From positions 1-10,342 of the forward strand of contig JBAWVS010000066.1 of the NCBI GenBank assembly GCA_037147175.1: a stretch of DNA of 10,342 nt, written 5' to 3'. Below the pieces are notes generated by a model. It did no database searches. It worked only from the letters and a program-made list of their open reading frames with translations, and was not told the DNA's origin. Position numbers and translations under genes: made by a program. Of the stretch, positions 2,054 to 10,085 are shown in pieces. This stretch comes from a bacterium (lineage in GTDB: Bacteria; Cyanobacteriota; Vampirovibrionia; Gastranaerophilales; UBA9971). Each line of letters starts with the position of its first letter. The stretch's first letter is position 1.

Positions 2054-3517
2054 TTGAAAATATTATTAGTGTACCCTCAATACCCTGATACCTTTTGGAG
2101 CTTTAAAAAAGCCTTGGAATATGTATCAAAAGAAGCTGCTATGCCCCCTTTGGGTCTATTAACAATAGCTTCTCTTTTGCCAAATGATTTTGAGAAAAAG
2201 CTAATAGACATGAATGTTGATAAATTAAGCGATGAAGACCTGCTGTGGGCTGATTATGTCTTTATAAGCGCTATGATAACGCAGAAAAATTCTGTTAATG
2301 CCTTGATAGAAAGATGTAAAAAACTCGGTGTTAAAACCGTAGCAGGCGGACCGCTGTTTACAAGTCTTTACGAAGAATTTCCGGATATAAATTATTTTAT
2401 TTTAAATGAAGGCGAAGTAACTTTGCCGTTGTTTTTAGAAGATTTAAAAAACGGCAGTTTAAAGAAAATTTATACTTCAGATATAAAACCTGACATAACA
2501 AAATCACCAATACCTCAATGGAACTTATTAAATCTGAAAAAATATTTTAAAATGCCTATTCAATGCTCAAGGGGATGCCCTTTTGACTGTGAATTTTGTG
2601 ATATAGTCAACCTAAACGGAAGAATTCCCAGATACAAGACTCCCGAACAGGTTATTCGGGAAATAGAAGCACTTTACCAAGCAGGATGGAATTTTTCAAT
2701 TTTTATTGTGGATGATAATTTTATAGGAAATGCACTAAAAGCAAAAGATCTTCTAAGAGCCTTAATTGAATGGAGAAATCGTAAAAAAATCCAGATTAGG
2801 TTTATGACAGAAGTTTCTTTAAATTTAGCGGACGATGACGAATTGCTTTCTCTTATGAGAGAGGCGGGGTTTAACAGCGTGTTCATAGGTCTTGAAACAC
2901 CCTCTAAAGAAGCTCTTCATGAATGCGGAAAATTCCAGAATAATAATCGTGATCCTATTTTTTCTGTCAGAAAAATTCAAAGTTATGGAATGGTTGTTTC
3001 AGGAGGTTTTATTGTCGGTTTTGACAGTGATGACTTTTCTATTTTTTCAAGACAAATTGAGTTTATTCAAAAAACAGGCATTGTTGTTGCAATGGTAGGT
3101 CTTTTGCAGGCTTTGCCGGGAACAAAACTCTATGAGCGTTTAAAAAATGAAAATCGGCTTCTTAAAGACAGTTCGGGAAATAATACTGATTTTTCGACAA
3201 ATTTTCTCCCCAAAATGGATTCAACTGTTTTAGTTAATGGATATAAGAAGATAGTTTCATCAATTTATTCTCCGGAAAACTATTATGAACGAATTAAAAC
3301 TTTTTTAAAATATTATAAACCTTGTGAGCCTGAGCCGTTTAATTTGAAAAATATTAATGCTCTGATTAAATCTGTATGCATATTAGGTATATTTCAAAAA
3401 AACAGGAAATATTACTGGGAAATATTATTTACCTGTTTGTATAAATACCCGAAATCCTTATCTGAAGTAATAACTATGGCTATTTTCTTTGAACATTTCA
3501 GCCTGATATTTGCTTAA
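2054..3517 (+). CDS. B12-binding-type radical SAM protein, DUF4070 class
   Basis: A 487-aa protein. The N-terminus MKILLVYPQYPDTFWSF, followed by AAMPPLGLLTIASLLP, is the signature opening of the B12-binding-like / radical SAM / DUF4070 family, which includes the hopanoid C-2 methylase HpnP and many uncharacterised relatives. GGP at 98-100 and NEGEVTLP at 118-125 belong to the Rossmann-like N-terminal domain. No DxHxxG motif is visible, so cobalamin may bind without a His ligand or not at all. The cluster motif is C175-x3-C179-x2-C182 (RGCPFDCEFC). GLETPS (279-284) and GFIVGFDSDD (318-327) are barrel segments, and the DUF4070-like tail runs from about 345. The start is TTG; family-typical residues begin at once and no upstream in-frame ATG fits. 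No strong ribosome binding site is seen. Calling it HpnP would overreach. Confidence 0.88.
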   Translation: MKILLVYPQYPDTFWSFKKALEYVSKEAAMPPLGLLTIASLLPNDFEKKLIDMNVDKLSDEDLLWADYVFISAMITQKNSVNALIERCKKLGVKTVAGGPLFTSLYEEFPDINYFILNEGEVTLPLFLEDLKNGSLKKIYTSDIKPDITKSPIPQWNLLNLKKYFKMPIQCSRGCPFDCEFCDIVNLNGRIPRYKTPEQVIREIEALYQAGWNFSIFIVDDNFIGNALKAKDLLRALIEWRNRKKIQIRFMTEVSLNLADDDELLSLMREAGFNSVFIGLETPSKEALHECGKFQNNNRDPIFSVRKIQSYGMVVSGGFIVGFDSDDFSIFSRQIEFIQKTGIVVAMVGLLQALPGTKLYERLKNENRLLKDSSGNNTDFSTNFLPKMDSTVLVNGYKKIVSSIYSPENYYERIKTFLKYYKPCEPEPFNLKNINALIKSVCILGIFQKNRKYYWEILFTCLYKYPKSLSEVITMAIFFEHFSLIFA

Positions 3518-4853: not shown

Positions 4854-4858
4854 AATTT

Positions 4859-4931
4859 GCGTCTGTAGCTCAGTGGATAGAGTAGCGGTTTCCGAAACCG
4901 TTGGTCGTGCGTTCAAATCGCATCAGGCGCA
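4859..4931 (+). tRNA. tRNA-Arg (anticodon CCG)
   Basis: A complete cloverleaf can be drawn. The acceptor is GCGTCTG / CAGGCGC (one G-U) with discriminator A. The D-stem is GCTC / GAGT. The anticodon stem is GCGGT / ACCGT around loop TTCCGAA, giving anticodon CCG (reads CGG). The variable loop is TGGTC. The T-arm is GTGCG-TTCAAAT-CGCAT. No CCA is encoded. It follows the TRL stop by 5 nt and should be processed from the same transcript. No strong terminator follows, only a weak AAG..CTT pairing with a T6 run at 4955-4960. Confidence 0.95.
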
Positions 4932-4979
4932 TTTTATTATATCAAGGGGTTCAGCTTTTTTGTAAATTTCGGAAATTCC

Positions 4980-5589: not shown

Positions 5590-5796
5590 ATGATAAAATG
5601 CAATTTGTCCCGTATTCTCGGAGAAAAAAGGATAACAATTAAAGAGGTTCACGAAAAAACAGGACTTTCCAGAAACACGGTTTCTAACCTTTACAATGAG
5701 AAGGCTGGTCGTGTGGATTTCGATACTTTAGAAAAATTGTGTATATGCCTGAACTGCAACATCGGAGATTTATTGGAATATGTAAAAGAAGCTTAA
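5590..5796 (+). CDS. Cro/C1-type helix-turn-helix regulator
   Basis: A 68-aa single-domain DNA-binding protein of the Cro/C1 (HTH_26-like) type. ITIKEVHEKTGLSRNTVSNLYN (15-36) contains the helix-turn-helix, and the recognition helix SRNTVSNLYN is followed by the family-typical DFDTLEKLCICLNCNIGDLLEYV tail. There is no sensor or oligomerisation domain. It is likely a small repressor of its own promoter and of the divergent 99-aa gene, with which it shares the 204-bp gap holding the repeats. Such regulators are common in phage-like and toxin-antitoxin loci. Confidence 0.9.
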   Translation: MIKCNLSRILGEKRITIKEVHEKTGLSRNTVSNLYNEKAGRVDFDTLEKLCICLNCNIGDLLEYVKEA

Positions 5797-6285: not shown

Positions 6286-6319
6286 TTGACTTTTTGTTAA
6301 TTAATGTAAATACTATAAT
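6286..6319 (+). promoter_or_regulatory. Candidate promoter for the Abi_2 leader / small RNA
   Basis: TTGACT (6286-6291) is a good -35. TACTATAAT (6311-6319) supplies a -10 as TACTAT (19-bp spacer) or the perfect TATAAT (6314-6319, 22-bp spacer). The spacing is long, so strength is uncertain. Transcription would begin near 6326, at the foot of the hairpin. Confidence 0.45.
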
Positions 6320-6325
6320 TAATAG

Positions 6326-6374
6326 TACCTGCCGAGCCTCTTCAAGAATGCTAAAATTGGCGGGTCTTCTTTTT
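6326..6374 (+). ncRNA. Candidate small RNA (possible RNA antitoxin) upstream of Abi_2
   Basis: ACCTGCCGA (6327-6335) pairs over its whole length with TTGGCGGGT (6357-6365). This 9-bp stem (two G-U pairs) has a 21-nt loop and is followed by CTTCTTTTT (6366-6374), an intrinsic terminator. With a promoter ending about 7 nt before the stem, this reads as an independent RNA of about 50 nt, ending 30 nt before the Abi_2 start codon. AbiF-type Abi_2 genes are reported to be stably associated with a conserved non-coding RNA acting as antitoxin, so position and form fit. It could instead be a transcription attenuator in the Abi_2 leader. Sequence match to the published RNA family could not be tested. 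Confidence 0.45.
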
Positions 6375-6403
6375 ATAATGGGTTTATAGCTGGTGAATCA
6401 CAA

Positions 6404-7264
6404 ATGAAAAAATTTGATAAAAAATCTCTTGATTATAGCGAACAAATTGAACTCTTAAAAACCAGAGGTTTAATAATTGAGAATGAACAAGAAGCGATAA
6501 ATTTTCTAAAATATACTAATTACTATCGTTTATCTTCCTATATGCGGCATTATCAGATAAATTCAAACCACGAGTTTAAAGAGGAGACTACCTTTAACGA
6601 TATTAAAAACTTGTATTGCTTTGATAGAGAGTTGAAATATTTAACATTTAAATATATTAAACAGATAGAAATAGCTGTTAGAGCTGTTTTTTCTCATAAT
6701 ATGACTACAAATTATGGTTCTCATTGGTTTTATTATGATAAATGCTTCTATAATTCAAATGACCAACAGGCTTTTCTTGGGATAATAAAAAATGAAATAA
6801 AGTACAATGATAAATATAAGGAAACTTTTATAAAATATTATTACCAAAAGTATAATGAACCTGATTTACCGCCATTTTGGATGGCAATTGAAGTTTTTTC
6901 CATAGGAAATTTGTCTAAAGCCTTGTCTAAAATAAAAGATAATGACGGTAAGCAAATAGCAAAAATTTTTAACATTCCTTTCAATCTTTTAAAAAGTTGG
7001 CTTCACTCTTTAACAACTGTAAGGAATATAGCTGCTCATCATTCCAGATTATGGAATAGAAAATTTACTATTGCACCAAAAAAACACTTTAATTTTAGTT
7101 ATCATACTGAATACAACCAAAATAGCTTTTACGCTCATGCAATAATCATCGAGTTTTTATTAAAGCAGATTACTCCTGATAATCAATGGAAATCTTTATT
7201 GAAAGAACTTTTTATAAAATATAAAGTTGACCCGATTAATTTAGGATTTCCAGCAGAATGGTAA
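6404..7264 (+). CDS. Abi_2 family (AbiD/AbiF-like) abortive-infection HEPN protein
   Basis: A 286-aa protein of normal length for Abi_2. N-terminal YSEQIELLKTRGL (11-23), the helical NFLKYTNYYRLSSYMR segment (33-48) and FDRELKYLTFKYIKQIEIAVR (73-93) are family hallmarks. The HEPN-type R-x4-H active-site motif is R207-N-I-A-A-H212, inside the conserved RNIAAHHSRLWNR block (207-219). It is intact, so the protein is predicted to be a functional RNase toxin. Family members give abortive infection against phages, and AbiF relatives act as toxins with RNA antitoxins and are proposed ancestors of Cas13. A GGTGA motif (6392-6396) lies 7 nt before ATG. The gene stands alone, without a protein antitoxin beside it, and is preceded by a promoter and a hairpin RNA candidate. 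Which Abi_2 subgroup it belongs to is inferred. Confidence 0.88.
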   Translation: MKKFDKKSLDYSEQIELLKTRGLIIENEQEAINFLKYTNYYRLSSYMRHYQINSNHEFKEETTFNDIKNLYCFDRELKYLTFKYIKQIEIAVRAVFSHNMTTNYGSHWFYYDKCFYNSNDQQAFLGIIKNEIKYNDKYKETFIKYYYQKYNEPDLPPFWMAIEVFSIGNLSKALSKIKDNDGKQIAKIFNIPFNLLKSWLHSLTTVRNIAAHHSRLWNRKFTIAPKKHFNFSYHTEYNQNSFYAHAIIIEFLLKQITPDNQWKSLLKELFIKYKVDPINLGFPAEW

Positions 7265-7533: not shown

Positions 7534-8241
7534 ATGAAAAAATTTGTTGTAATTTTAATCAGCGTAATTATGTTCTTCAGTAATTCCGTTAAAGCTAATG
7601 CCATTGTATTGAATTTTGATGACATTATAAAGGGCAGAGACCTTTCTGTTTGGCAGTATTCACATATAGATGGAATTTGGGATTCTGACAAAGGTACGAC
7701 ATACGGCGGGCTGGACTGGAAAAATATACTTGTTGGCAATTTTGATTATAATAAGGGTAGCGAGGAAGCAAAAAATAGGGGATATGCGAAAGCTGTCATA
7801 TCTGGACATTTTGCGGCTACCAATTTCCCTTTTGTGTATTCCGGAGAAGAAAGCTCTATTTCAAGTAATGAGCCTTTTACTTTTAATGGTGCGTATTTCG
7901 GTGTAGGAGTTGAAGTCAATCCTATTTACTTGAGCATAACTGCAACAAGAAATGATGATCTTTGGACAGAAACCAAAATATCAAAGTTAATTTATTGGAA
8001 TGAGCCACAATACATTAATTTTGATTTTAAAAATATCAACAAATTAACTTTAACGGCTTTTTACGCAAATCCCCCCATTGCTAATATATCCAGCCTTTTT
8101 CTTATGGATGATTTTACTTTTAATGAGCCTGACAGTTATACGCCGGCAACACCTGTCCCCGAATCTTCCTCAATGCTGTTAGGGTTAATGAGCGTTGGCG
8201 GTATGCTTGGATTAAGAAAGAGAAGAAAAATTGCGAGTTAA
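7534..8241 (+). CDS. PEP-CTERM sorting-domain secreted protein
   Basis: A 235-aa exported protein. Residues 1-23 are a signal peptide (MKKFVVILISVIMFF, then ANA before I24). The C-terminus is a PEP-CTERM sorting tag: VPESSS (208-213, a variant of VPEPSS), a hydrophobic stretch to about 226, then RKRRK. This tag is processed by an exosortase (EpsH family), usually in bacteria with exopolysaccharide or biofilm envelopes. The body has the beta-rich pattern common in PEP-CTERM proteins: YGGLDWKN (57-64), GYAKAVISG, FTFNGAYF (115-122), and the final LFLMDDFTFNE (188-198). No catalytic residues are apparent, so a surface or matrix role is likely. The ribosome binding site is AAAGGA, 10 nt upstream. 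The next gene follows after 5 bp. No exosortase lies in this window. Confidence 0.85.
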   Translation: MKKFVVILISVIMFFSNSVKANAIVLNFDDIIKGRDLSVWQYSHIDGIWDSDKGTTYGGLDWKNILVGNFDYNKGSEEAKNRGYAKAVISGHFAATNFPFVYSGEESSISSNEPFTFNGAYFGVGVEVNPIYLSITATRNDDLWTETKISKLIYWNEPQYINFDFKNINKLTLTAFYANPPIANISSLFLMDDFTFNEPDSYTPATPVPESSSMLLGLMSVGGMLGLRKRRKIAS

Positions 8242-9605: not shown

Positions 9606-10085
9606 ATGCCAGACAATCTGAACCCAAAACAAAAGGCCTTCTGTGATGAATATCTTGCTAATGGATGCAATGCAACTAAGGCTTATTTAGTCGCGTATCC
9701 TGATTGTACTTATGATTCTGCAAGAACTTTAGCGGCTAATTTGTTGGCAAATATTGGCATAAAAAAATATCTGGATGAGCGTCTCAAAGAGGTAGATAAA
9801 TCAAATCTGCTTTCTATCAAGGAAATCCTTATAAAAGTTCAGGGTATTGCAGGTAATGAGAAAACGAAAGTAGCTGAAAAATTGAAGAGCTACGATTTAC
9901 TGCTCAAGGCTCATGGTGCATATAAAGAAAATGTTATAAATATAAACAATGCCCCTGCTAGTAATGTTGGCCCTGAAGAAGTAAAAGCTATGATCAAGGA
10001 AATTGCCGAAGAAACCAGAAAAAAATTTGAAATAAAGAAAAACGAAGCTGAGTATCAAGCTAAATGCAAAAAATGGGGTGTATAA
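9606..10085 (+). CDS. Phage terminase small subunit (Terminase_2 type)
   Basis: A 159-aa DNA-packaging protein that recognises the phage pac/cos site and partners the large ATPase-nuclease. LNPKQKAFCDEYLANGCNATKAY (5-27) is the classic opening of the Terminase_2 helix-turn-helix domain, continued by SARTLAANLLANIGIKKYLDERL (38-60). The middle (KEILIKVQGIAGNEKTKVAEKLKSYDLLLKAHGAYKE) is the oligomerisation region as in relatives, and the tail is charged and helical. The length is normal. GGAGG lies 7 nt before ATG, the best ribosome binding site in the window. No large terminase follows: the next gene is on the opposite strand. It is therefore an orphan small terminase, as in degraded prophages and in phage satellites that redirect helper packaging. 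Confidence 0.88.
   Translation: MPDNLNPKQKAFCDEYLANGCNATKAYLVAYPDCTYDSARTLAANLLANIGIKKYLDERLKEVDKSNLLSIKEILIKVQGIAGNEKTKVAEKLKSYDLLLKAHGAYKENVININNAPASNVGPEEVKAMIKEIAEETRKKFEIKKNEAEYQAKCKKWGV

Follow-up and report, generated by a model that had tools for sequence, protein, structure and literature searches.

A predicted AbiF-AbiFr toxin-antitoxin locus at one end of a tRNA-Arg-integrated prophage-like element

An abiF gene within an integrated element

The window, by which we mean the whole 10,342-bp stretch of DNA analyzed here, carries an abiF gene on the forward strand (6404 to 7264) that codes for a 286-residue protein of the Abi_2/AbiD-AbiF type, a predicted HEPN ribonuclease toxin. The Abi_2 domain is complete (PF07751, 168.6 bits against a cut-off of 25.6, covering profile positions 1 to 184 of 184), and the protein also matches the PADLOC AbiD model (238.5 bits) and PHROG 2158 (abortive infection resistance). 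The HEPN RxxxxH motif is intact as RNIAAH (R207 to H212), and R207, N208, A211, and H212 are invariant among 11 aligned homologues, bearing out the original prediction of a full-length Abi_2 protein with this motif. The closest solved structure by sequence comparison is the "Abi family protein" of PDB 8VZ6 (aligned over residues 11 to 286, E = 5.5e-34), described as a complex of PbAbiF with its RNA, AbiFr, in which there is one AbiFr per AbiF monomer (PMC12737573). R207 and H212 align with R210 and H215 of 8VZ6, and the PbAbiF variant carrying both R210A and H215A is reported to be inactive (PMC12373285). Judged from its sequence, the product is a full-length AbiF and a homologue of the structurally characterized PbAbiF toxin. 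We note that the same genome codes for a second, distant Abi_2 protein (L063, 1379 to 2239, on contig C92; 45.1 bits) with an RNDISHH motif.

The 3′ part of a tRNA-Arg(CCG) gene (4858 to 4932) and the 7 bases that follow it form a 52-bp attachment-site core (4888 to 4939, forward strand), which is repeated exactly on contig C78 (L233, 1481 to 1532). The C78 copy has a Phage_integrase (tyrosine integrase) gene on one side, the opposite flank carries a response regulator gene and rplI, and no tRNA was found in the C78 repeat region. A terminase small subunit gene in the window (9606 to 10085, forward strand; PF03592, 68.7 bits; PHROG 51) is probably part of the same element. Together, the repeat, the integrase gene on C78, and the terminase gene indicate that the window from about position 4940 onward is one end of a tRNA-Arg-integrated element, with the AbiF pair located ∼1.4 to 2.3 kb inside it, and the att repeat lends substance to the mobile island of the original prediction. 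The window makes up the whole of its contig (C66), so the assembly leaves the remainder of the element unattached, and the sequence indicates that the two ends of this prophage-like element sit on separate contigs. The window also codes for a secreted-looking protein (7534 to 8241) that has no Pfam match and whose C terminus resembles a PEP-CTERM sorting signal (VPESSSMLLGLMSVGGMLGLRKRRK).

A conserved hairpin RNA upstream of abiF

Directly upstream of abiF and on the same strand is a hairpin (6327 to 6366) resembling the AbiFr antitoxin RNA, with 38 nt between its 3′ end and the abiF ATG at 6404. A covariance search for the AbiF-associated RNA family, proposed as a check when the hairpin was first predicted, matches Rfam RF03085 (abiF RNA) at 6328 to 6365 with 32.2 bits (E = 2.7e-4 on 251 bases). 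This is below the curated RF03085 gathering score of 37 bits, and a first Rfam scan missed the hairpin because that score was its threshold. When RF03085 is searched against the entire 2.66-Mb genome, the window hairpin is the sole match (E = 6.9e-4). Two further models were made, R1 from 18 diverse sequences (16 distinct) and R2 solely from 74 aligned R1 matches at AbiF loci of other genomes, with the window excluded. Across the whole genome, R2 likewise has 6327 to 6366 as its only match (33.7 bits, E = 5.2e-5).

The conserved structure consists of a 7-bp outer stem (6327 to 6333 with 6359 to 6365) and a 3-bp inner stem (AGC/GCU; 6335 to 6337 with 6350 to 6352), and the window retains all 10 of its pairs, one of them as G-U. 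It was originally drawn as a 9-bp stem (6327 to 6335 with 6357 to 6365), and although that complementarity is present, its two innermost pairs fall outside the conserved structure: A6335 pairs with U6352 rather than with U6357, and G6334-U6358 is possible in the fold. The window shares with RF03085 the outer stem, the 3-bp inner stem, the 3′ bulge (here AAAAUU), the loop core (CCUCU...), and the position just upstream of abiF, and differs in its lower score and in a loop that is altered and one base longer than the consensus (CUCUUCAAGAAU versus CUCUUAACAAU).

The pairing is strongly supported by covariation. In the 18-sequence alignment, 96.8% of cells are standard pairs versus 76.4% in shuffles, and 9 of the 10 hairpin pairs show compensatory changes, a level reached by none of 500 shuffles; shifting the pairing partners along the alignment abolishes the signal. 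A further 66 distinct sequences have compensatory changes at 8 of 10 pairs, in an alignment that is fitted to the model and so biased toward it. In the inner stem AGC/GCU gives way to CGC/GCG, and the outer stem varies widely (e.g., ACCUGCU/AGCAGGU, GCAGACC/GGGUCUGC, and ACCUCCC/GGGAGGU), whereas the CCUCU loop and a 3′ bulge of CAAAU or CACCA are conserved across phyla. Aligning the regions upstream of homologues, also suggested at the outset, thus reveals that relatives, close and distant alike, keep the hairpin and show compensatory changes in its stem; failure to find such conservation would have counted against the prediction. Folding energy alone does not set the hairpin apart (z = −1.69, with 10 of 200 shuffles as good), and what places it above chance is homology and covariation, not folding energy or promoter scanning.

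Transcription signals and association with AbiF in other genomes

The RNA probably has a promoter at 6286 to 6314 on the forward strand, with TTGACT (6286 to 6291), a 17-nt spacer, and AATACT (6309 to 6314), assigned from consensus match and from the register of relatives in the same order, in which TTGAAA-17-TATAAT ends 13 nt ahead of the CC of the stem. The TTGACT and TATAAT (6314 to 6319, forward strand) that were first proposed as the promoter are both present, but a 22-nt spacer separates them, and this spacing and the register of the relatives make AATACT the likely −10, with TATAAT as an alternative. The window promoter is weak by consensus, and a consensus promoter scan yields no excess over chance (14 sites versus 12.9 expected). 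With AATACT as the −10, the RNA would start near 6321 (near 6326 with TATAAT), and either choice predicts a transcript of about 48 to 53 nt, in agreement with the ∼50 nt originally estimated.

A T-rich tract (6367 to 6374) follows the stem and is probably an intrinsic terminator that is leaky into abiF; the T5 previously noted is confirmed at 6370 to 6374 and ends 29 nt ahead of the ATG. A terminator scan did not list the hairpin because its loop is too long for the scan. Among 67 distinct homologous loci, however, the T frequency in the first eight positions after the stem is 0.45 to 0.93, versus 0.28 upstream. With a T tract at nearly all loci, it is very likely that the antitoxin hairpin also serves as the intrinsic terminator. 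Promoter scanning places no site between the hairpin and the abiF ATG, and abiF expression therefore probably depends on read-through, as demonstrated for the RCd22-abiFCd system of Clostridioides difficile (PMC12373285).

The RNA and AbiF occur together broadly. Genome and viral contig scans using a single AbiF sequence recovered no relatives, but an alignment query did recover them. The RNA is directly upstream of abiF in all five order relatives whose AbiF is 45 to 49% identical to that of the window, and RF03085 scores reach 53 to 56 bits in several order relatives; a sixth (G117), with an AbiF only 34% identical, has no RNA directly upstream. Among 80 AbiF homologues on contigs from Pseudomonadota, Bacteroidota, Acidobacteria, Verrucomicrobia, Omnitrophota, and others, R1 finds a coding-strand RNA upstream of 70 (with a median distance of 25 nt to the first aligned codon), and most of the 10 lacking an R1 match show, as judged by eye, a diverged hairpin followed by T residues. 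Of 48 viral-contig loci, 17 have an R2 match upstream of AbiF. No significant abiF RNA match was obtained at the remaining Abi_2-like genes in the window's genome (on contigs C92 and C28), suggesting that the RNA accompanies a close AbiF subfamily and not all Abi_2 proteins.

A single hairpin is the usual form of the RNA among homologous loci, so the "minimal" RNA of the original prediction is not distinctive. Some loci carry two or three abiF RNAs in tandem before one AbiF gene (L114, 1164 to 1472; L102, 1370 to 1473; L056, 365 to 576; L060, 370 to 582), resembling the two-motif RCd22. In at least three order relatives, an abiF RNA is not directly followed by an AbiF gene: L068 (genome G055, ∼1566 to 1602), L067 (G149, ∼3162 to 3198), and L070 (G344, 1617 to 1651). 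In L068 the gene that follows (1633 to 2406) codes for a uracil-DNA glycosylase superfamily protein (PF03167), and in L067 a predicted ADP-ribosyltransferase domain protein (PF03496; 1951 to 2874) is coded close to the orphan RNA. It is conceivable, though doubtful, that the lineage has solo abiF RNAs lacking a toxin, either as relics or as trans protection of cells or incoming elements against AbiF.

Interpretation and comparison with known systems

We interpret the locus, with a probability of about 0.92, as an AbiF-AbiFr system in which a HEPN ribonuclease toxin is preceded by its own antitoxin RNA at the end of a tRNA-Arg-integrated prophage-like element. The RF03085 match, the homology of the protein to PbAbiF, and the conserved pairing with compensatory changes all argue for the antitoxin role that was predicted for the ∼50-nt RNA. 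This kind of system is already described (RF03085; PMC12373285; PDB 8VZ6), and the window is a new example of it. The PbAbiF-AbiFr complex (8VZ6, Zilberzwige-Tal et al.) is comparable in its near-full-length protein homology, in its catalytic arginine and histidine, and in the use of one hairpin RNA as antitoxin, although PbAbiF is distant in sequence from the window AbiF and the likeness is drawn from the protein alignment. RCd22-AbiFCd, from the C. difficile prophage phi027, is likewise prophage-borne and has a promoter, abiF-motif RNA, and abiF in line; RCd22 neutralizes AbiFCd whether supplied in cis or in trans, and needs its stem to do so (PMC12373285). RCd22 differs in having two abiF motifs plus a terminator hairpin distinct from them, whereas the window has a single motif hairpin followed by a T tract. 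The phiC2 copy (L062) also has an RF03085 match upstream of its abiF. The toxin and antitoxin actions expected of a type III-like pair are, for the window, presumed by analogy with RCd22-AbiFCd and PbAbiF-AbiFr, for which others have demonstrated a toxic protein and its neutralization by directly bound RNA (PMC12373285; PMC12737573). A HEPN ribonuclease ancestry of Cas13 has been proposed through AbiF (PMC12737573), but unlike Cas13, the type VI CRISPR effectors, the window AbiF is a single small HEPN protein with no guide and no repeats, and is not a CRISPR effector.

We consider it improbable that the hairpin acts solely in cis, as an attenuator or terminator within the abiF leader that holds down expression, and does not bind AbiF in trans. 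Nearly all homologous loci do have a T tract immediately behind the stem, which is compatible with such a role, and RCd22 works partly via premature termination (PMC12373285); however, a plain terminator needs just a stable stem, yet here it is the loop and bulge letters that are conserved across phyla while those of the stem vary, and the known members act in trans through direct binding (PMC12373285; PMC12737573). Slightly less probable again is a decaying remnant, in which AbiF, its RNA, or both are no longer part of a functional pair. Its appeal lies in the altered loop and in a score of 32.2 bits where several order relatives reach 53 to 56, but the open reading frame is full length and intact with every invariant AbiF residue present, and the conserved structure is kept at 10 of 10 pairs. 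A protein partner could also control AbiF, with the hairpin incidental, and a small HTH_26 protein is indeed coded within the same element (5590 to 5796); its gene, though, precedes abiF by ∼600 nt, with a further reading frame intervening, and an RNA directly upstream of 70 of 80 AbiF homologues makes this the least credible of the explanations, at very long odds.

If the pair does act as an AbiF-AbiFr system, a single promoter at ∼6286 to 6314 would, from sequence and homology, direct synthesis of a short RNA with its 3′ end at the T tract behind the hairpin, with occasional read-through giving a minor abiF mRNA. As read-through would be only occasional, the RNA would be made in excess, as inferred from RCd22 in C. 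difficile. By homology with PbAbiF, the folded RNA would bind an AbiF dimer, one RNA per monomer, blocking the HEPN site at R207 and H212. If a phage takes over the cell or the element is lost, the RNA would presumably decay and release AbiF, which may then cut single-stranded RNA and stop growth; this could guard the population from phage or keep the element in place.

The window thus contributes a well-supported new case of the AbiF-AbiFr systems, thought to be ancestral to Cas13, with an RNA that is kept in order relatives and a pair that is carried on a tRNA-integrated element. A T tract comes straight after the hairpin in nearly all cases, so that a single structure appears to act both as antitoxin and as transcription terminator; this bears on how the doses of toxin and antitoxin are set in general, and it can be tested.
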